From positions 62,001-126,000 of the forward strand of contig JAIXMO010000023.1 of the NCBI GenBank assembly GCA_025677825.1: 64,000 nucleotides of DNA, read 5' to 3'. Both the position numbers and the translations under genes were made by a program. Position 1 is the first letter of the stretch; the number at the start of each line of letters is the position of its first letter. Shown here one piece after another: positions 4,852 to 45,069 of this stretch. The DNA comes from Helicostylum pulchrum (Eukaryota; Mucoromycota; Mucoromycetes; Mucorales; Mucoraceae). The notes below the pieces were generated by a model, which searched no databases, was not told the origin of the DNA, and saw only the letters and a list, made by a program, of their open reading frames with translations.

Positions 4852-6236
4852 TTGCTTAATGTTGCTTGTTTTAAAAGTGCGCGCTTCAAAGTGTAAACTA
4901 GAAAAAAAAATCTATCTGGGTATTTGGTGGCTTGTATATGATCTTCCAACTGGTAAAAAAAAAAAAGATCCGCTTTAGGAAATCAATGCTTACAAACCTT
5001 CATGATAGCAAGAACCCATGTTTTTTTGTATACACACCCTTTATTTTTTTTTTCCTTTCTGTCTTTTAAAATGACAGTGTGTTGATCCCAGTTACGGCTT
5101 TTACATGGTTCTAGAATAAAATTGGTCTAGCAGATCTAAATTCTTATACAATAGAGTTATTGTTTAACTATTGTAGCATTTAGAAAACGTATGACAATAA
5201 GACATCTCTCGGCCTTACATTTTTGCTTGTGCAAATATATCCCTCCCCTGTTGCCGACCGAGGGGTTTTTTCTTTAAAAAATGACTTTACGAGGATTGTT
5301 CTCGCCGTTGGGAAAAAAAATACATCCACACATGTTTTTGACACGTTCTTTTTTTAAAAAATAAATCGGTCTTATACAAAAAGGGAAAACAGTATTAGGG
5401 TTCCCGAGGCTACTATTCGTTTCTCCAATTGGTTAGAATCTTGAGATTCTCGCCACCCGTTTCCCGTATCATGAGTCCCTGTAAAAAAACTTCCGAGATT
5501 CATAGAATAGTATAATGCCATTTTCTTTAAGATGGGATTTATAGAGGTGCATGTTATTGATTTTTTCCCCTAAACTAAACTAAAATCAGGTCATGATATT
5601 ATGCGTTATTGTGGCGTCATTTATTTCCGTTATAAAATGTCTCCGCTTGATTCCTTCAAAAAATCACCAAGGACCCTTTACACGTCCAGAGGGAAACTAT
5701 CCATTTACGTAACATGATTACTTCATCAAAAAAAGATTCGTCTTTGGTTATTTTTTCATGTAAAATAACATCAACAGTGTAACCATCAGTTCTAATCACA
5801 TTTGAAAAAGCAAAATTTCTTTATCTTGGATATATCGCTATGTATCGTGTATTAGTTTTTACTTTACGATATTCAGTATACATCATTTCTTGAGATCTCA
5901 TTTTTTTTTAATAAAGCTCCTTTTTTTCCACTTTACAAAAGTATAGTTCGTATTTTGACTTGTTATGTCTCGAGATCTAATAATTTTAAGCCATACTCAC
6001 TTAATTAATCAAAAATAAAATAAGTAAAAATAAAAAAAATAAAAAACATTTGACAACTCTTCTTTTTATTTTTGTCATACACTACTATCAAGGATGAGGC
6101 GCAAAAAAGAACAAATAGACACGTACACTCACGGATTGACGGTAATTAACCCTCCTCGTTCTTTTAATAAACCAAACCGAAGTACTAGAAGCAACACTTT
6201 ACGCACTTTTTTTCTCTAAAAAAAGCTCAAGACAGA
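4852..6236. other. Long intergenic region before the Fanzor relic
   Basis: About 1.4 kb without a supported gene. The first 200 bp form the Syo1-like promoter, with poly-A/T tracts. A stretch at about 5421-5475 resembles a degraded glutamate tRNA (see findings). From 5880 on, the sequence is very AT-rich and leads into the pseudogene at 6237. Confidence 0.5.
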
Positions 6237-8044
6237 ATGTATCTCCAAGATTTTCAAGACAATACTATCAAATCAATTACAGCCCTCGCCAACAAGGACG
6301 CTGTTTTCAGTAGCTTCTTTAACATCCACCTATTTAAAAAAAAAGGCAGTCAGATTAAGCTTTCTATCGCTAAAAAGGAGATGCCTGTGACAGATACATT
6401 AGATATTTCAAAAATTAAACCTCGAACGCTTTTATCAATGTATGATACTGACTACAAATTTCAAAAGGATTCGATATATTATGACGTGAAAGCGCGCCCT
6501 GCAAATCATCTTAAGGCTTTTTTCAAGCTTCAACAACCATGTGAACATGCCAAGAAATTAAAAAAAAATATCTGTTTCCCTATTCGTACGTCTTTTATCC
6601 CTTCATATATGACATTGGACGCAAAAGTAGCGAACTACCATATTTTGAAGAGCAAAAAACATGTAGCGGATAAATACCACACCTGAAGTCAAGTTGTTTC
6701 TTTAAAGGGCCCAATAAATATTTGCGCTTTCAGGATACGTTGGAAACCGATGGAATCGGCGTGTCAGTGCTTAAACAAAATTCCAGTACGAATCGAAGGC
6801 TCGCAGACACCGGCAGACAACAATCTGTAACTAAGGATGAGTACAAGATCGAGCACATTCAAGGTTTGACTCAAGAAGCTCTTAATAGAACAACTGATAA
6901 TTGCGTTTTGATTGATCCTGGTCGCCGTGACTCAATGTAATGTATGTACGAAACCAGTACTGTTAAAGAAAAGAAGACCTTTATTTTCACCAAAAACAAC
7001 CGTACGAAACTTTCTAAACACTTCCGGTATTTACGAAAGCGAAGTCAACCCTTTACAATCAAAGCGACTGAAGCAGCTCATTTTGAAACAGATCCTAGTT
7101 CCATAAGCGTAGATAAATTCGTACAATATATAAAGACAAGAGCATCGGTAAAGGATACTATGTACGCATAATATGGAAACGAGACTATTAAGAGTGACAA
7201 GGTTTTTTCCCTGACTCTGAACTCGACTTTCAAGTTGATAAAAAGTGCAATCTGTATTACGAAAGTTTGTTCCTAGCAAACATACGTGATTTGTCTTCTC
7301 CACGTAATCAGCGTTATAGTACCTACATAAACATGATGTTACAACAAGAACATATTCGGGATAGATTGAATATTACAGACATAAGAAACATCGAAAGATT
7401 AACGGGAAGCATGGACAGGCAGGACACGAACAATAAAAACTTACGGCTTCAGTATTACAAAAACTACAGCTTCTACCATTCAGAAAGATCAAATTTTCGA
7501 CTAAACTCTATTACAATCAGAACGGTCTCGAAGTGGTAAACGGCTTGAAAACAAAATTTGGTCCTAATGCTGTACTCATTCTCGGGGATTGGTCCGCGCC
7601 AAACGTTCCCCATCAAGAGTCTACTAGAAAAAAGGGTCTAATTAAAATGCTAAAGAAAAACGGATTTGTCGTTTATCTAATCAATGGGTTTCGAACGTCT
7701 TCGCTGTGTCCCTTTTGTGAGGCGAGCTTACAAACTTTCAAGACCGTACCAAACCCTCGTCCGTATAAGAGGACGAGTGCGCCGACAGTTACCTGTCACG
7801 GATTGTTAAGGTAGGCGAAAGAAAAAAAAAGTAAATTAAGCACTGATAACTAATGCAACACTATAGGTGGAACGATAACCAATGCTTCGAATCTGACAAC
7901 AGTGAAAAAATGCGGCTCTGGAACAGAGATTTGGCTGCAGTGTTAAATTTTCGTAAAATGCTATTCAGTATAAGAAATACTAGTAAACGCCCATCCGCTT
8001 TTGACAGAAACTATTCCGCCAGAGTTATCGCTCTGGCCAATTAA
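6237..8044 (+). pseudogene. Fanzor (eukaryotic TnpB-like RNA-guided nuclease), decayed copy
   Basis: Segments in changing frames line up in Fanzor order. An N-terminal part lies at 6237-6683. RuvC-I is VLIDPGRRDSM (Asp codon 6914-6916), followed by PSSISVDKFVQYI. Then come LILGDWSAP (7587-7589), GFRTSSLCPFC (Cys codons 7707, 7716), HGLLR, a 56-nt intron (7811-7866), and WNRDLAAVLNFRKM (RuvC-III Asp 7928-7930). This follows the published Fanzor pattern: Asp, then Thr/Ser pair, zinc finger, RD. Decay is clear. There are frameshifts near 6675-6690, before 7267 and near 7490. In-frame TAA codons stand at 6938-6940 and 7169-7171, where Tyr would fit. The third zinc ligand position reads Trp (7868-7870). 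Fanzors are transposon-associated, RNA-guided DNA nucleases; this copy cannot make a full protein. No terminal repeats were found at its edges. Confidence 0.8.
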
Positions 8045-8220
8045 TGCAGGTAATGTACTAAAATATCCTATTTTATAAACGCAAAACGACAATAGTTGGT
8101 GAACTAACGGATATTTTGATTTAAGGCTAGAGACATTTATTTTTTGCGAAACGATATTTATTTTTTTACTGTACCGAGTCTCTTATTAGTAAGAAGAAAA
8201 CCACCCTACTTGGACACCAG

Positions 8221-8868
8221 ATGTTGTATACGGAAGAAGAACTTTCACGTCATAGCTTATTTCATTGTGGCACACCAGAAGAGCTAGAAGAGTCGTACAC
8301 ATACCATGCTAACGCTCGCGATACGCAACGTGAATTTTATTACAGCAGATCCAATTGCAACCGTAAAAGAAGACCGGAATTGACCAAGAGACGGTACTGG
8401 GATAAGACTTTCACTATTGAGCGTAAACTATCTGGAGTAAAGAAGCCGATCGTGGGATTGGGTCAAGTATAAAGGGTCATCAAAGGTTTGGTGGATTCCA
8501 GAAACAGAACAAACACGGTCTAAATACACCTACGATTGTACAATAGTTCACAAACCTGCTTGTTCTGCTTTGATAAGCTTTCTCATCCTGTCTCTGCCAC
8601 TGCTGATAAGATTACCATTTCAAAAGGAACTTTTATCTGTTTGAATAGTAATTTCCCGAAGGCATTTAAAACAATGTGTAGAGACAAGGTCTCCGCACTA
8701 GCAATTGGTCTCGCCGGTCTGGCTTATTTACTCTTTGGTTCGACCTTCCCTTGATTCGACGAAACCTTTACTCGTACTTCCAAAGCACGATTCTTTGATT
8801 CAGTCCTCGATTTTCTGCAAAGGAAACAACGAATGGGCTTGCCTATCGATGGTAGCAATACTCTTTGA
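8221..8868 (+). pseudogene. Second, divergent TnpB/Fanzor-like C-terminal fragment, decayed
   Basis: A coding relic in at least two frames. MLYTEEELSRHSLFHCG runs to KKPIVGLGQV (frame of 8221). A shifted piece KGHQRFGGFQKQNKHG follows at 8472-8540. The frame then returns with YNSSQTCLFCFDKLSHP (Cys codons 8557 and 8566), FICLNSNFPK and MCRDKVSALAIGLAGL (Asp 8683-8685). TGA at 8752-8754 interrupts the frame before FDETFTRTSKARFFD, and the final stop is at 8866-8868. A Ser-Ser/CxxC/C-x-N/RD/AIGL order is what a RuvC-III plus zinc-ribbon end looks like, but it differs clearly from the relic just upstream, so it belongs to another lineage. The fourth zinc position appears to be Phe (SNFPK). Family assignment is an inference from this motif order; the N-terminal half is not visible. 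Confidence 0.55.
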
Positions 8869-9730
8869 GGTATGCAGCTATACTATACATATAAAAAAGA
8901 CATTGAATTAATTTAAAATATCACCCGTTTCTTTCGCCCTCTAAATCTAATGATCTTAAATGTATATTTAAAATATTTTGCTAATCAATTTACTAATTTT
9001 TTTTGAGATCCATAGTGCATTTACCCTCACAGTATACATACAATTTTATTTACCTCTCGACTCTAATTTTTTTCAAATTAAAAAGTTTATCAAACATTTT
9101 TAAAATATCTGAACAGTTTTTAGGCTGTTTTTGTTGCCGAATGCCGCCAAGTAGTTGAAATTAATAGTAATATACTTCCACTTTATGGAGGGAGAAGGAG
9201 CCAAAGAGAATAATACCGGTTTCTTTTAAGAAAGGGTGCCATCAAGTTATTTTTCATAGACCTCTGATATATACAAGCTATATATTCACGCCTTTTTGAT
9301 TACTATTTACTTACTACTTTGTATTTAAATGACAATTGCTAACTTGTTATTCTCATACCTAAGTTAGCGACCTGCCAATTTATGTTATAATCGATTGTGT
9401 TACTATTTATTAAAACAACCTGACAATAACCCAAAAAGATTTATTATTTATTCTATTATTTATTCAACATGAAACCCTTTTCACCAACATAAATAATAAA
9501 TAAAGCAACACAGACAAAGGGTTATACATTACGTTTTAAACCAAATTTATATCGTAACAGACTATCTTTATGTTACTTAAAAGGGCCGCACACTCTTTCA
9601 GTTTTATCTGTCATTTGAACCAATTTCTTTTAATATAAAACTACTTCATTTCAAATAATAAAATCAATCATCTTTCATTTTGTAAAGGCTTTTAAAGAAC
9701 CTTACTGTCTTCTTTTTAACATATATATCA
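8869..9730. other. AT-rich non-coding DNA
   Basis: About 860 bp between the Fanzor-like relics and the hairpin element. No open frame of note, no RNA gene and no recognisable repeat was seen. It may hold the 3' remnant of the upstream mobile element. Confidence 0.5.
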
Positions 9731-10163
9731 CCAACTTTGAATTGTTGACACAGTGATGTAATTTCAGAGATAAAAAAACTAAATTAATAGATAAAAAAAC
9801 TAGCGAGTGGTAGACTACATCATCTAATATATCTCTTCAGGAAATACTACTTTATTACAATGTTAATGAAGTTACTATATCAAACTGTAAATCGTGTGTT
9901 TGTATCGCCTATTTAATAAAGTTTCTATTACAGAATCAGTTTAAAAGTGCATGTTTCGGAATACTATATTTTTCAATTTATTAAATAGGCGATGAAAACA
10001 CGCGATTTACTGTCTGATTCTGATATAGTATACCCCTTAATACTGTAATAACATACTGTATCCTGAGGAGATATATTAGATGCTGTAGTCTACTACTTAC
10101 TAGTTTTTTATCTACTAATAGTTTTTTTCTCAAAGCACATAATTGTTAACAATTCAAAGTTGG
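9731..10163. mobile_element. MITE-like hairpin element, 433 bp, with inverted terminal repeats
   Basis: The left end reads CCAACTTTGAATTGTTGACA (9731-9750), and the right end (10141-10163) is its reverse complement apart from one base. The arms continue inward imperfectly. Matching pairs are ATAAAAAAACTA with TAGTTTTTTATC, AGTAGACTACA-type blocks, and GTAAATCGTGTGTTTGTATCGCC with GGCGATGAAAACACGCGATTTAC-type blocks, so the whole element can fold into one long hairpin around about 9945. It has no coding capacity, typical of a non-autonomous DNA transposon. No target duplication is obvious; only CA is shared by both flanks. Confidence 0.75.
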
Positions 10164-12270: not shown

Positions 12271-14949
<2,679 letters not shown>

Positions 14950-20832: not shown

Positions 20833-23800
20833 ATGAATAGGAATACCGAGAATAACGGAGGAAGAGCTAATAAGTCATTTAATTATGCACAAGCAGCGAG
20901 ATCTTCTCAAACGCGAGGTCCTTTACCGGAACCACTCTTACCGCAGCAACAACAACAACAACAGCAGCAGCAGCAACAGCCAACAGAGCCTACTGCTTCT
21001 CTCTTAAGAAAAACAACTAGTTCATCTAGTTTCAATTCTTCATCCATTGGCCAACACAAAAACTCGTACGGTTTGATACATGTATAAATATATTATTGGC
21101 AACTCACCATCTTAACTCATCTGTTACTTTTTTTTTTAATCTGAAAAAAAAATAGGTACAATAAACCAAAAGATAACACTTATAAAAAGGCACCTGTACA
21201 ACTACCGATGGCACCACCAACAGACACAGGTAAAAAGAAAAAGAAAAAAAAAGATAAAATAAACACATGATAAAATAATGATAATAATGGTTATGATGAT
21301 GATAATAGGGCCTATTCAATTTGGATCTATTAATCAACCTTTAAATACACCATTACCTATCACAGTTGGTAAAAGTGGTGATATACCTGTATTAAGAACA
21401 TCCGAAGTACAATTTGGTAGTTTGCCTGTAACAGATACATCCTCAAATCATGTAAGTATACACATATAAAAAGAAAAAATTTAACTCTCGACTGTCTTTT
21501 TAACTGTTGTATAATGTTTAATAGAGAGCAACAACACAAATTAGGCTTCAACAACAACAACAACAACAACAAAAGTCAGACACACCTCGTACCACCAATG
21601 ATGCTAGATTATTTACGCAACCTTACGCGCCTCGTCGAGATATGAATCAGGGAGAATATAATAATAATAATAATCGTTACTTTGCAAATAGTTATAACAA
21701 GAACAATTATAGACCTCAACAACAACAACAACAACAACAACAACAAAACATGCAGCAGCAACAACAACAAAACTTACAGCAGCAGCAAAACATACAACAA
21801 CAGCAGCAACCACAGCAACCCTCACCCATTCAACAACATTCCCCACAAAATTTACCTCCATCTCCCATGAGTGTGCATCGTTCTCCAAACATGAATAACT
21901 ATCAAAAAAAGAATAACTTATCCCCACACATTTCTCATTCATCTCCTCAAAATATCCAAATGACTACAAGTTGGCCTACAAACCAATACGTAAGTGTATA
22001 GTTATATATATATATTTTGTTGTGTATACGTTTATTAACAACCTAATTTAGTATTACTCTCAATACCCTGTCCCTGTACCACCTTACAATGTTTTACCAG
22101 CAAATAGATCTCCCGTTATTCCACCACCTGCGCCTAGAAAAGTCATTGCCATTATCAATCCATTAACAGGCAACGCTTTAAACACAAACCCAATGTCTCT
22201 TACTAGCTCTGTTCCTGCCCCTGCCACTACTACCATAACCATTTCCAAACACGAAGAAAAGTTAGATTTCAAGGTCCCCCCTCCTCATGTATCCAAAGCC
22301 GTGGATATTGTTGACCCCGCTATTCGTAACCGTGAAATACGTGAGCAAAAGGAACGCGAAGAAGCCGAGCAAGAAGCAGCCAGAAAAGTAGAAGAGGAAA
22401 AAAAGGAAGCAGAAAGAAAGGAACTGGAGCGTATCGAAAATGAGAGATTGGCTGAAATCGTCGAAAAGCAAAGAATTGAAACCGAGCGTCGCCTGCAGGC
22501 TGAACAAGAGGCTATTGAAAAGGCTGAAAGGGAAGCGAAAAAGATAGAAGAGGAAGCGAATAAGAAATTAGAAGAGGATGCTCTTAGAAAGTCGGAAGAG
22601 GAGTCACGTAAAAGAGTCGAAGAGGAGGCACGTAGAAAGGAAGAAGAGGAAACAGAGTTGAAGCGTGTGATTGAGGAGTTAGAAGCGAAAAAGAGACGTG
22701 AGGAACAAGACCGTATCATCTCGGCGGAAGTTGCTTCTCAAAACGTCGGAAGAGTACCCAGTCCTCCTATTCCTGTCAAATCTGTAATGAAAATTATCGA
22801 TGATCCTAGTACGATTCAATACCCTGCTGGTATTCAAGCCCCTCTTGCTGTTCCTGCTTCCTCCGCTGGTAAATTAGCATACAGTATTGAATTCTTGTTA
22901 CAGTTTCAACAAATTTGTTTGGATACTGAAGAGGATTTATCTGCTATTGTCAAAGAATTGAACGACGTCTCTCGCGGAAATAATCCAGGTATGCGTCAAC
23001 CTTCAGATCGTGGTAGAGGAACTCGTTTACCTGGTGGTGCTCCCGGTGTACCTATCAACAACAACCCGAATATGGGCGATCCAATGTTTAGAATGGGGTC
23101 TCGTGATGGGCGTATGGAAATGGGTAAATTTAATATGGGACGTCCTTTGACTGGTCGTGGCGGAAGTAATAATAACCACATGGAACGTCAAGGTTCTCGA
23201 GGTGGTGGTATTAGTAATAGAGGTGGTGGACGTGGTGGTGGAGGCAGTGGTATGAAAATTACTCGTAATCCTCCTCAAAGTCAAGGCGCTCCTACTATTC
23301 CATTTGAACAAGTTGTTCCTCTTGAAAAGAGTGAAAACAGATGGGTACCTACCGTTCAATCGTCTACAACTACAGCAGCAGCAGCAGCTAACACCACCGA
23401 AGATGAATTATTGCCTAGAGAAATCATTATTCGAAAGGTCAATGCTTTACTCAACAAATTAACTGTAGAAAAATTCGATTCGATCGCAGCGCAGATTTTT
23501 GTATACGCTAAACAATCAGCAAGAGAAGATGATGGTAAATCCATTCGTACCGTTATCAAACTTACTTTTGAAAAGGCGTGTGATGAACCGGCGTTTGCGA
23601 CCATGTGGGCTCAGTTATGTAGATCCATGTACGATGCCATGACAGATGATATTCGTGATACTAGTATCTTTAATGAAGCTGGTGAGCCTTCTTCCGGTGT
23701 TTTACTGTTTAGAAAGTATCTCTTCAATCGTTGTCAAGTCGAATTTGAAAAGGGTTGGAAAGTCAATATGCCTGAGGTAACTGAAGTAGACGGTCAGATG

Positions 23801-25172
23801 ACAGAAGAATATTATATTGCTGCCAAGGCCAAGCGTCAAGGTTTAGGTTTAATTCAATTTATTGGAGAACTGTTCAAGTTGGACATGTTATCTGAACGTA
23901 TTATGTACAACTGTATGATCCGATTATGTAACGACCCAACGAATGCGGGTGACGAAGAAGCCGAATCTCTCTGTAAATTGCTTACGACGATTGGTAAGGT
24001 GCTTGATCATAAGCCCAAGACAAGCAGATGGGTGGATATCTTTATTACGAGAATGAAGACTGAAATGGTCCTCAGTCCCAAGATTTCTTCCAGAATTAAA
24101 TTCATGATTCAAAACTTGCTTGATTTGCGTAAGGATAAGTGGGTACCCCGAATTGGAGGTGGACAAGTAGGTCCCACTACCATTGCAAAGATTCATGAAA
24201 TGGCTGAAAAGGCTAAAGAAGAAAAGGAGGCTGCTAGTATGAAGCGTAACAATAGTTCTCGTGGACAATATATACCCAACAACAATAATAACAACAACAA
24301 CCAATATAACAATAATAACAATAATATGGCTCGTACTGGTTCCTATCGTGGTGGAAGAGATCAACATCATTTCCAACCTCATAACAACAACAACGGTGGA
24401 GATGGCTGGAGTACTGTATCTCCTGTTGGCAACGGTACTAATAAATCAAGAACCAATGATCTTACCAACTTTGGTAAAACCGATAGAAGTAGAGCAAAGA
24501 CAAATATTCTTGGACCTGGTAACAGTCCTTTTGCAAGCTTGTCTAGAGGCAAACCCACGATCAATACAGATAATAAGGGGGGACTTGGTGAGGGAAGATC
24601 GAGTCCGGCTACAAATATGTTTAGCGCGTTAGAAAAGGCAGATGAACGTAAAAAGTTACAGATTGCTCCTAGAACAATTGAAGCAGAGGTTGTGGAAACA
24701 CCAAAGCTTTCGGATGATGTAATTAAACGTAAATGTAAGAATATCTTGGAAGAATACTTTAACGTTCGAGATAAAAAAGTAAGACACAAATTGAGAAAAA
24801 AGAGGAACGAGATATTAAAGTAAGATTTTTTTTTTTTTTTAGGAATTATCTGAATGTGTTAAAGAACTTGAGGATGCACATTATATTGTTTTGTTTATTG
24901 GTGAAATGTTGGCAGTGGTGGAAAAGAAGGCAGAGGATGTGGAAAGAATGACTCAAGTGATGGAGTTCCTGGAATTAGAAAAGGAGTTGTATGTTAAAGC
25001 TTTCAAGAGCTTTATGGAGGGATACGACGATTTAACGATTGATGTACCTCAAGCACCAAAATATGTCGCGCAACTTTTATCGGCTGCTGCACTTGCACCT
25101 GAAGAGGTGGATGATGAAGGATTCGATTCATTGAAAAATGCATATAAAAAACTTGGTGTGAACTCAAAATAA
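20833..25172 (+). CDS. TIF4631: Translation initiation factor eIF4G
   Basis: Six exons (20833-21065, 21156-21229, 21309-21451, 21525-21989, 22052-24778, 24843-25172) total 3972 nt, 1323 residues. The N-terminal third is Gln/Asn-rich with several poly-Q runs and ends in RKVIAIINPLTG. A long charged coiled coil follows (EREEAEQEAARKVEEEKK). The canonical eIF4E-binding motif YSIEFLL is at 22880-22900. After an RGG-rich linker comes the MIF4G domain (REIIIRKVNALLNKLTVEKF, GVLLFRKYLFNRCQVEFEKGW, RLCNDPTNAG). Poly-Asn and RS-like stretches lead to a C-terminal MA3-like helical end (ELSECVKELEDAHYIVLFIGE). eIF4G scaffolds eIF4E, eIF4A and PABP on mRNA caps. The donor at 24779 rather than a later GT keeps the C-terminal frame. 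The start at 20833 is preferred to 20770, which would add a hydrophobic leader. Confidence 0.93.
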
Positions 25173-42735: not shown

Positions 42736-45069
42736 TTAATGATATGTTTTCTTGACAGTTTCAACAAATGTACGAATCTTGGCTAAATCTTTGACACCAT
42801 TTGTTTCAACACCTGAAGAAACATCAACAATCCAAGGCTTTACTTGATGAATAGCAGAAGCTACATTAGTAGCATCGAGACCACCAGCTAAAATAACAGG
42901 GAAATCCTTATTACCCAAGAATTCAAATTGTTTATGAGTAACAATATCTCTTGCAATAGACCAATCGAATTGAACACCTTGTCCTCCTTGTTGATCAGAT
43001 GGTAAACTAGCTACCTTGGCATCCAAAAGTACATACTGGTGATTGCCAGGTTGAGTATAATTAGGCATTTGTGCACGCTTATAAGAGTTATTATCGACAT
43101 GGAACACCTTAATCACAGGTACTGGTAAGTACCGTGCTACTTCAACTGATTCAGTACCATGTAATTGAATCAAATCTAAACCAATTTCTAAAGCAACTTG
43201 TGTCATATATTCAATTGATTGATTCACAAAAACACCAACAACCAAAGGCTTTCTTTTACGTGCTTCTAATAATTGACGGTGTATTTGGAACCAGTCAGCA
43301 GTTGAGTCTGTACTGGGTTTACAAGGTCTTGAGATATTTAATTCGCGTACAGATTTAACAATAGCAGAAGCGGTTTCTAAAGATACCTTTCTCTTGGATT
43401 TCTCAGCAAAGATAAGACCGATTAAATCAGCACCAGCATTAGCAGCCTCAACAGCAGCTTCAACGGTCGAAATACCACAAACTTTAGCAAGCGATTGCTT
43501 TGGCTCCCTTGAAACATGAACTGGGTTGGTCTTTTCAAGTCCAAGTAATTCAGAAACAAATTCCTTCAAGTTCCAAGCACGCATTAAAGCTTCACCTACA
43601 AGTACACCCTTGACACCTTGCTTAACATACGTTTCTACATCGGCTCTATTTCCAATTCCAGAGAGAGCACATAAAATAGTACCTTCAGGTACCATCTCTG
43701 CCAAACGAGACGTGGTTTCCATATCGACATCAAAGCTGTGTAAGTTACGGTTATTGACACCAATTAATTTTGAACCTAGAGCATTGGCACGAGCCATTTC
43801 TTCAGCGTTGTTTACTTCTACCAAAGGTTCCATACCAAGAGATTTAGAGTAATTATATAATTCGTGTAAAACTTCGTCATTTAACATGGCAACAATTAAT
43901 AAAACTGTATCGGCACCGTATAAACGACCTTCTAAAATTTGATAACAATCGACAATAAAATCCTTTCTCAAGACGCAGGGACGGTTAGGTAAATCTGCAA
44001 AGGATTGACGAACTTGATACATATCATGAATTGTACCACGGAACCATTTGGGTTCTGTCAAGACAGAGACAACACTTGCACCTGCTAAAGCATATTGCAA
44101 TGCTTGTTCAGCTGCATTAGCAGTGGCGTCAATATTACCCTTGGATGGTGATGCACGTTTGACTTCAGCTAAAAGTGCAGGAGTTGATTGCTTCAAACGA
44201 GCAACAACATCAGAAAGAGGAGGTGCCACATGTAAGCTTAAGAGCTTTTCTAAATCTTGCATGGTTTGACCTGGGATTTCTTTAGCTGCTTGAACATCCT
44301 TTACACGTTGAGCATAGATACGAGTCAAAATAGAAGGAGCATCACCAGTTGTAGTGGCAGCAGTAGTGATAGCAACAGCGGCGGCAGTAGCAGTAGCAGC
44401 AGCAGCAGCAGCCTTAGTTTCAGCGCTTGTTGAAGGGGAAGGTTCACGCAACTTGTTTGGTAAAATACCAGCTCCAGGGTTCTCTACCCAAGTACCACCA
44501 GTCAAACTTAAAAAGTTGGCGATCATGGTATGACCATTTTCACACAAGATACTTTCAGGATGAAATTGAAGACCTTCAACAGTGAATTCTTTATGACGAA
44601 CACCCATAATGACACCATCGACAGTGGTAGAAGTGACTTCCAAAGTATCAGGCATAGTGGATGGCATACCAGCTAATGAATGGTAACGGGTCACAAGGTT
44701 GTTTTGGGGTACACCCTTAAATAATCCACGATTATCGTGTTTAATAGGTGAGGTTTTACCGTGAACAATATCACCAGCATAAGATACAGTACCACCGTAT
44801 ACTTCAAACATACATTGCATTCCCATACAAATACCAAGAATAGGAATCTTGCCGGCGAAATGAGCAATGGCGTCGCGGGAAATACCAGCATCAGTTGAAG
44901 GATGACCTGGACCGGGAGAAACGACAATATTACGTGGTGATAACTTTTCGATTTCTTCAATGGTGATTTTATCGTTACGGTAAACAACTACGTCTGCTCC
45001 TTGAGAACACAAGTATTGATAAACATTGTATGTAAAACTATCGTAGTTATCGATTAATAAGGTAGTCAT
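42736..45069 (-). CDS. TRP1: Trifunctional tryptophan protein: GATase, IGPS and PRAI
   Basis: One intron-less frame of 777 residues. Residues 1-200 are the glutamine amidotransferase of anthranilate synthase: [19 protein letters not shown], the nucleophile Cys81 in GICMGMQ, and LQFHPESI. A low-complexity Ala/Thr linker (about 205-240) follows. Residues 245-510 are indole-3-glycerol-phosphate synthase ([52 protein letters not shown]). Residues 525-777 are phosphoribosylanthranilate isomerase ([54 protein letters not shown]). This fusion is the usual fungal trpC/trp-1 layout. A TGACTCA site lies 118 bp upstream. Confidence 0.97.

Follow-up and report, generated by a model that had tools for sequence, protein, structure and literature searches.

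A dead Fanzor1 element nested in a divergent Fanzor-like element of Helicostylum pulchrum

We analyzed a 64,000-nucleotide stretch of the genome of the fungus Helicostylum pulchrum (Mucorales), referred to here as the window (contig JAIXMO010000023.1, positions 62,001 to 126,000; C85:62001-126000 in our numbering), and searched the 32.2-Mb genome for related copies. Window positions 5872 to 9035 (+ strand, as are all features below unless noted) very probably hold a dead composite of two mobile elements, in which an element bearing a Fanzor1 gene is nested inside an outer element bearing a second, divergent Fanzor-like gene, the whole having spread and then decayed. Fanzor1 genes are called family A here, the divergent host gene family B, and the window copy W; C-numbers (C46, C83, C94, and C136) denote copies elsewhere in the genome, and L-numbers denote loci found by our searches. 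An earlier reading made from the letters alone (the sequence-only reading) had placed a Fanzor relic at 6237 to 8044. The part from 6351 to 8041 is indeed a dead Fanzor1 gene, whereas 6237 to 6350 codes for family B.

The Fanzor1 identity of positions 6351 to 8041 is firm at the level of sequence. With an 849-residue Parasitella Fanzor (P0025) as the tblastn query, collinear pieces spanning window positions 6348 to 8017 were recovered at 40 to 57% identity, and the piece from 7437 to 7811 matched the solved Parasitella Fanzor 1 (PDB 9cf0) with an E value of 9.7e-46 and the Spizellomyces Fanzor (8gkh) with an E value of 6.3e-13. Because of these two values, we do not regard the match as due to chance, and it is the collinear pieces together with the match to the Parasitella structure that make the assignment firm. 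The Asp of DPGRRD, GDWSAP, TSSLCPFC, and WNRDLAAVLNFRKM, the signatures on which the sequence-only reading had relied, were all found on the + strand in the claimed order. The TnpB/Fanzor motif has been given as D-X(125,275)-[TS][TS]xx-C4 zinc finger-X(5,50)-RD (PMC3627910); P0025 fits it (D 485 to TS 758), and the relic has its parts in order, with one zinc Cys replaced. A Pfam search with six relic pieces returned only PF07282 (Cas12f1-like TNB), with an E value of 0.2 and 12.3 bits against a curated cutoff of 26.3. Scores below that cutoff were also obtained for the family A loci L018 (15.0) and L013 (13.4) and for the family B locus L045 (9.9), and 17 of the 18 other listed genome places passed it. 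One place above the cutoff, L002 (C158:323164), is a 382-amino-acid (aa) open frame belonging to yet another TnpB/Fanzor-like family. Descent from an unrelated zinc-ribbon family was ruled out by the matches to solved Fanzors and by tblastn with the Parasitella protein.

The relic starts at about residue 289 of P0025; the earlier part of the protein and both transposon ends are missing. Its broken exon 1 (6351 to 7810, delimited by tblastn with P0025 and a second Parasitella Fanzor, P0027, and by a stop check) contains in-frame stops at 6684 (TGA), 6938, 7169, and 7434 (all TAA). The stops at 6938 and 7169 are the two TAA codons at Tyr positions that had been reported before; the other two had been missed. 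Changes of frame near 6700, 7205, and 7420 were seen by tblastn, and a fourth falls at 7811 to 7866. Since the fourth is an intron, three of the four are real frameshifts. The Fanzor RuvC insertion (FRI) region (7190 to 7440, located from the gap in the tblastn alignment) lacks 10 residues, including the loop that contains PQP in the Parasitella Fanzor, the protein for which the FRI and its cyclophilin-binding prolines were described (PMC11423790). GDWSAP and the first half of the zinc ribbon (TSSLCPFC...CHGLL) lie at 7437 to 7810, and there the Glu of DEF(K/R)TS is replaced by Gly in the relic and retained in close copies; taking this Glu as the catalytic residue is our own reading, following PMC11423790. 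Because the RuvC Asp-Glu-Asp set is broken, the relic is a descendant of Fanzor1 rather than a working enzyme, and the window copy cannot act.

Comparison of paralogues placed a phase-2 intron of 56 bases (GTAGGC...CTATAG) at 7811 to 7866. By eye, at least 23 of 29 paralogous loci have a GT after the corresponding codons; a strict donor-site pattern was found in 12 of the 29, a low count because the pattern is too narrow for L018-type copies. Exon 2 (7867 to 8041, from paralogues, tblastn, and a stop check) codes for the rest of the zinc ribbon and the RuvC-III motif WNRDLAA. The first Cys past the intron has become Trp, and the native stop before a 3' hairpin has been lost, so that the frame reads on to a TAA at 8042; both the Cys and the stop are kept in close copies.

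Sixty-one places in the genome match a piece of the relic, its own among them, and most of these paralogues have stops or short frames. Intact relatives had been expected in the same genome, and two intact-looking loci were found, L013 (702 aa stop to stop) and L018 (622 aa), in each of which exon 1 is a single long open frame and the intron and RD exon come after it. L013 matched the solved Parasitella Fanzor 1 over residues 3 to 621 of 621 (E = 4e-195), L018 matched a solved Fanzor with an E value of 2e-149, and family A matched Spizellomyces punctatus Fanzor 1 with an E value of 1e-44. Outside this genome, named matches occurred in Mucorales, Coemansia, Syncephalis, and Dispira (among the 120 of 151 matches listed). 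The ratio of nonsynonymous to synonymous substitution rates (dN/dS) among six young copies (15 pairs) ranged from 0.37 to 1.35, with no clear signal of selection. In L013 (C96:111457, minus strand), the FRI is present with its PQP loop; the account in PMC11423790 reports the FRI in Parasitella and Rhizopus only.

The sequence on either side of the relic belongs to a second gene. BLAST comparisons among the window, C46, C83, C94, and C136 showed that window similarity to C46 and C83 extends past the Fanzor on both sides, and the outer boundaries at 5872 and 9035 are common to C46, C83, and C94, with differing flanks beyond them. When a 1,129-aa family B protein from Mucor hiemalis (P0123) was used as the tblastn query, positions 6216 to 6374 (E = 0.002) and 8194 to 8763 (E = 2e-19) matched different parts of this one protein. 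A simpler account, in which 6237 to 8044 is a single decayed Fanzor1 gene with unrelated neighbors, fits the tblastn assignment of all the named motifs to one Fanzor1 gene; it is nevertheless very improbable, given that both flanks match P0123 and that these flanks recur in unchanged order in C46, C83, and C94, bounded on the outside by element ends.

Reading through the outer element of the composite, we found the family B gene start, with its ATG at 6094 (6094 to 6197, by BLAST against C46 and C83), cut at about 6197 by an internal deletion that removed about 1.8 kb of the sequence present in C46. It is followed by an internal coding piece, MYLQDFQDNTIKSITALANKDAVFSSFFNIHLF (6198 to 6350, from the P0123 match and protein stretches of C83 and L050). 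Beyond the nested element lies the C-terminal part (8172 to 8868), with the zinc ribbon SSQTCLFC and CRDKVSALAIGL, which carries stops in the window (for example, TAA at 8470). The left end of the outer element, at 5872, reads TTCAGTAT in the window copy, C46, and C94 and CCCAGTAT in C98, and C83 lacks the CAG; a subterminal palindrome, TGAGATCTCA (5891 to 5900, no strand assigned), is shared by the window copy, C46, C83, and C94, with a related form in C98. Comparison of family B copies placed the right end, GTGCATTTACCCTCACAGTAT, at 9015 to 9035, with CAGTAT at 9030 to 9035. Of 13 copies inspected, 8 have this end (the window copy, C83, C94, C46, C57, C98, C163, and L049), which reads ATTTACCCTC(A/T)CAGTAT in seven and ATTTATCCTCACAGTAT in C46; it was not found in the available sequence of L042, L044, L047, L050, and L055. 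Inspection by eye of the ends and flanks of the copies revealed no inverted repeats and no target duplications.

The nested Fanzor1 element has ends of a different type. In C94, its left end is TA followed by CAGTGCAGCTGGTAAATATTGTCC, the left and right ends are imperfect mirror images for about 40 bases, and TA flanks both inverted repeats; the right end is also present in C83 and L026. Eighteen of 31 places matched by a 3' probe, besides the query, stop at query base 209 to 211, which corresponds to the right end plus TA. In the window, the 3' part of this element (8042 to 8171, by comparison with C83, C94, L026, and L030) has lost the right inverted repeat of about 50 bases. Judged by the inverted repeats and TA in C94 and other copies, Fanzor1 was carried by a DNA transposon, whose ends are lost in the window; no transposase gene was seen between the inverted repeats. 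Young Fanzor1 elements elsewhere (L018, L019, L021 to L023, L025, L027, L031, and L033) end, by eye, in ...(A/T)ATA(G/A)TG and then TA, with a variable number of repeats of about 22 bases between the hairpin and the end. L011, L013, L014, and L036 have Fanzor1 cores and the same hairpin with a different 3' flank (TTCTTCTTT(T/C)GGGAG..., by eye), so related Fanzors seem to be carried by elements with three or more types of ends. In L011 (C136, minus strand), a 164-aa open frame that lies about 0.8 kb downstream of the Fanzor resembles, by eye, a fragment of a Tc1/mariner DDE transposase.

A search for the composite detected six places in the genome, four with near-full composite copies and two short. 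With a family B 5' probe, three long and two short matches were obtained, the window being among the short ones because of its deletion. The four composite copies have different outer flanks, and the composite therefore moved as one unit. A deletion fusing family B to mid-Fanzor is common to the window and C46, both of which have also lost the right inverted repeat, and the window has the further deletion at 6197. Presence in at least four places could also be expected if the two genes formed a single working unit of two nucleases instead of an accidental nest. However, the Fanzor1 element is also present at other loci, bounded by its own right end (L026 and L030), family B is found without a nested Fanzor1 (L045 and L055), and the insertion splits the family B gene. 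Furthermore, a family B locus is found no more than 5 kb away from 5 of 52 family A loci, versus about 1.6 expected by chance, and 3 of the 5 are the composite; with it left out, the 52 loci give no clear sign that A tends to lie beside B. We consider a two-nuclease unit highly improbable. Family A lay beside PF07282 loci in 2 cases, versus 0.3 expected, and family B in none, versus 0.5 expected.

The position of the nest also bears on how the copies arose. The DNA that follows the Fanzor1 right end on its 3' side in C83 and C94 codes for family B, and the guide of the nested Fanzor1 may therefore have targeted family B genes, a hypothesis for which there is little support. Under guide-directed homing, such a guide would have led to the cutting and filling of uninterrupted family B copies, in keeping with our failure to find an uninterrupted long copy of this family B subfamily in the genome with two probes. 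Yet the outer flanks beyond the family B ends differ in the four copies, so that transposition of one composite accounts for all of them; comparisons of the 3' flanks do not fix where the guide starts, and, apart from the composite, A is not clearly enriched beside B. Homing thus has a slim chance of being correct, and we favor insertion of the Fanzor1 element into family B followed by movement of the composite.

Family B is abundant, with 132 matches in the H. pulchrum genome, and its named matches are all in Mucorales. None of the 22 family B homologues listed has a Fanzor/TnpB Pfam domain, and one has PF05208. The published TnpB/Fanzor motif is complete in 6 of 15 family B rows, with a D-to-TS spacing of 157 to 241; two further C-terminal rows have the part from the zinc finger to RD, and in the remaining 7, several of which are fragments, the motif was not found. 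Profile comparison of family B with Fanzor1 gave a probability of 96.4 and an E value of 1.4e-9. A scripted repeat gave E values of 3.6e-7 and 1.6e-7, and reversed or permuted controls had probabilities of at most 0.3 in 10 of 10 cases. A single-sequence search of solved structures with family B returned no similarity to Fanzors, and we take homology to Fanzor1 to be detectable by profile only. A family B core, itself weakly predicted, was used in a Foldseek search, in which the best 6 of 177 matches were Fanzor1 chains (top E value, 1.7e-5); with VIA, too, the best matches of this weak model were Fanzors. The first family B model (722 aa; predicted local distance difference test score, 55.3) was left out of the fold search. 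Intact-looking copies include L055, whose open frames span 387 and 722 aa, and open C-terminal exons such as L062. About 165 bases past the family B stop codon of L055 (3720 to 3926; C85:4919-5125, +) is an apparent C-terminal exon of another Fanzor-like gene (SHGILSCKSCNILWDRDINVALNML), with no first exon recognized upstream. At L070 (149 to 1117, minus strand), an open frame fuses a possible C2H2-like finger stretch to a family B C terminus. We found no description of family B in the Fanzor, TnpB, and fungal transposon literature that was covered, which excluded supplements and most subscription papers. The Fanzor1 relic is of a known kind; family B appears to be an unannotated branch.

Both genes are associated with hairpins that may mark guide RNAs. 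Positions 8018 to 8037 form a 7-bp hairpin, GCCAGAG-UUAUCG-CUCUGGC, in the place where a guide RNA from the end of the element had been suggested, and it is the best candidate for the first stem-loop of such a guide. Hairpins were located by searching for the UUAUCG loop, and a stem around it or a close variant past the Fanzor1 stop was found in 28 of 29 loci (all except L024) and in the window. Among 22 distinct sequences, covariation of the 7-pair stem was 0.437, versus 0.261 ± 0.037 for shuffles (0 of 500 as high), and fell to 0.118 or less when the register was shifted; on two measures the values were no higher than in shuffles, and 10 of the 22 sequences form the second outermost pair. 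These results add support to the guide RNA suggestion and leave the hairpin a candidate. Seven pairs are likewise reported for the first stem-loop of all three Fanzor1 guide RNAs, that of Parasitella being 75 nucleotides long (PMC11423790). Similarity to the window ends about 10 to 15 bases past the hairpin in L011/C136 (BLAST) and L036 (by eye), compared with the roughly 180 bases to the end of the window-type element. All seven pairs are kept in the relic hairpin, as might be expected if the stops and frame changes were recoded and the gene were still in use. That idea has next to no chance of being right, however, since the protein has lost roughly its first third as well as the catalytic Glu and a zinc Cys, and stops or short frames are found in most paralogues, too. 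At the family B stop region, a small hairpin, CTC-TTT-GAG (8861 to 8869), has counterparts in other family B subfamilies. The stems differ in sequence and remain self-complementary across subfamilies, with 40 pairs in nine sequences versus a shuffled mean of 6.2 (0 of 20,000 as high), a test that overstates the case because the hairpins were first chosen by eye. An Rfam scan of window positions 5800 to 9100 gave no match.

We propose that the outer element coded for the family B protein and that a mariner-type element with terminal inverted repeats, bearing a Fanzor1 gene and its 3' hairpin as a candidate guide RNA scaffold, inserted at a TA within the family B gene, between the first RuvC motif and the GDR motif. 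The composite would then have spread to at least four places by means of the outer element's ends. Later, the window copy would have lost the 5' part of the Fanzor, through the deletion it shares with C46, and more of the family B gene, along with the right inverted repeat, the reading frame, the catalytic Glu, and the zinc Cys. Given its homology to enzymes whose RNA-guided DNA cleavage has been demonstrated (PMC10432273 and PMC11423790), the living Fanzor1 ancestor was presumably an RNA-guided nuclease as well, with a guide RNA from its 3' end.

The Fanzor1 component resembles Parasitella parasitica Fanzor 1 (PDB 9cf0 to 9cf3), which belongs to the same family and, as described in PMC11423790, shares the FRI, the D-E-D residues of the relatives, and seven pairs in the first stem-loop, for which the hairpin here is a candidate; unlike it, the window copy is dead and its FRI lacks the cyclophilin-binding proline loop. 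Inverted repeats and a TA duplication are also features of the Fanzor1 genes in Tc/mariner elements described by Bao and Jurka in 2013 (PMC3627910), but here the element lies within a second Fanzor-like gene and moved together with this host. Spizellomyces punctatus Fanzor 1 (PDB 8gkh; PMC10432273) is matched in sequence by family A and is the top Foldseek match of the family B core. Family B differs from it in showing no single-sequence similarity, in having a large extra N-terminal part, and in having ends without inverted repeats.

Elsewhere in the window, ordinary fungal genes surround the relic, including an AAA ATPase (12271 to 14079), an eIF4G-like gene (22193 to 24823), and a multifunctional tryptophan enzyme (42736 to 45069). 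Downstream of the relic, at about 9770 to 10130, a long inverted repeat seen by eye is perhaps a small nonautonomous transposon.

A bolder reading, which we regard as conceivable though rather unlikely, is that family B represents a distinct lineage of eukaryotic RNA-guided nucleases that occurs only in Mucorales and can still move, with its own stop-codon hairpin RNA and the large N-terminal part. Its ends, with a direct CAGTAT at both and subterminal palindromes in place of inverted repeats, would then imply a mechanism unlike that of mariner-borne Fanzors, and the window would record one Fanzor lineage parasitizing another, possibly with a guide aimed at the host gene. The Fanzor1 relic itself is one more member of a known family, and the importance of the locus lies in its host gene. 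If family B is a true RNA-guided nuclease, it widens the known range of eukaryotic ones; its unusual ends pose a direct question of how such elements move, and the hairpins offer a concrete handle on the guide RNAs of families A and B.
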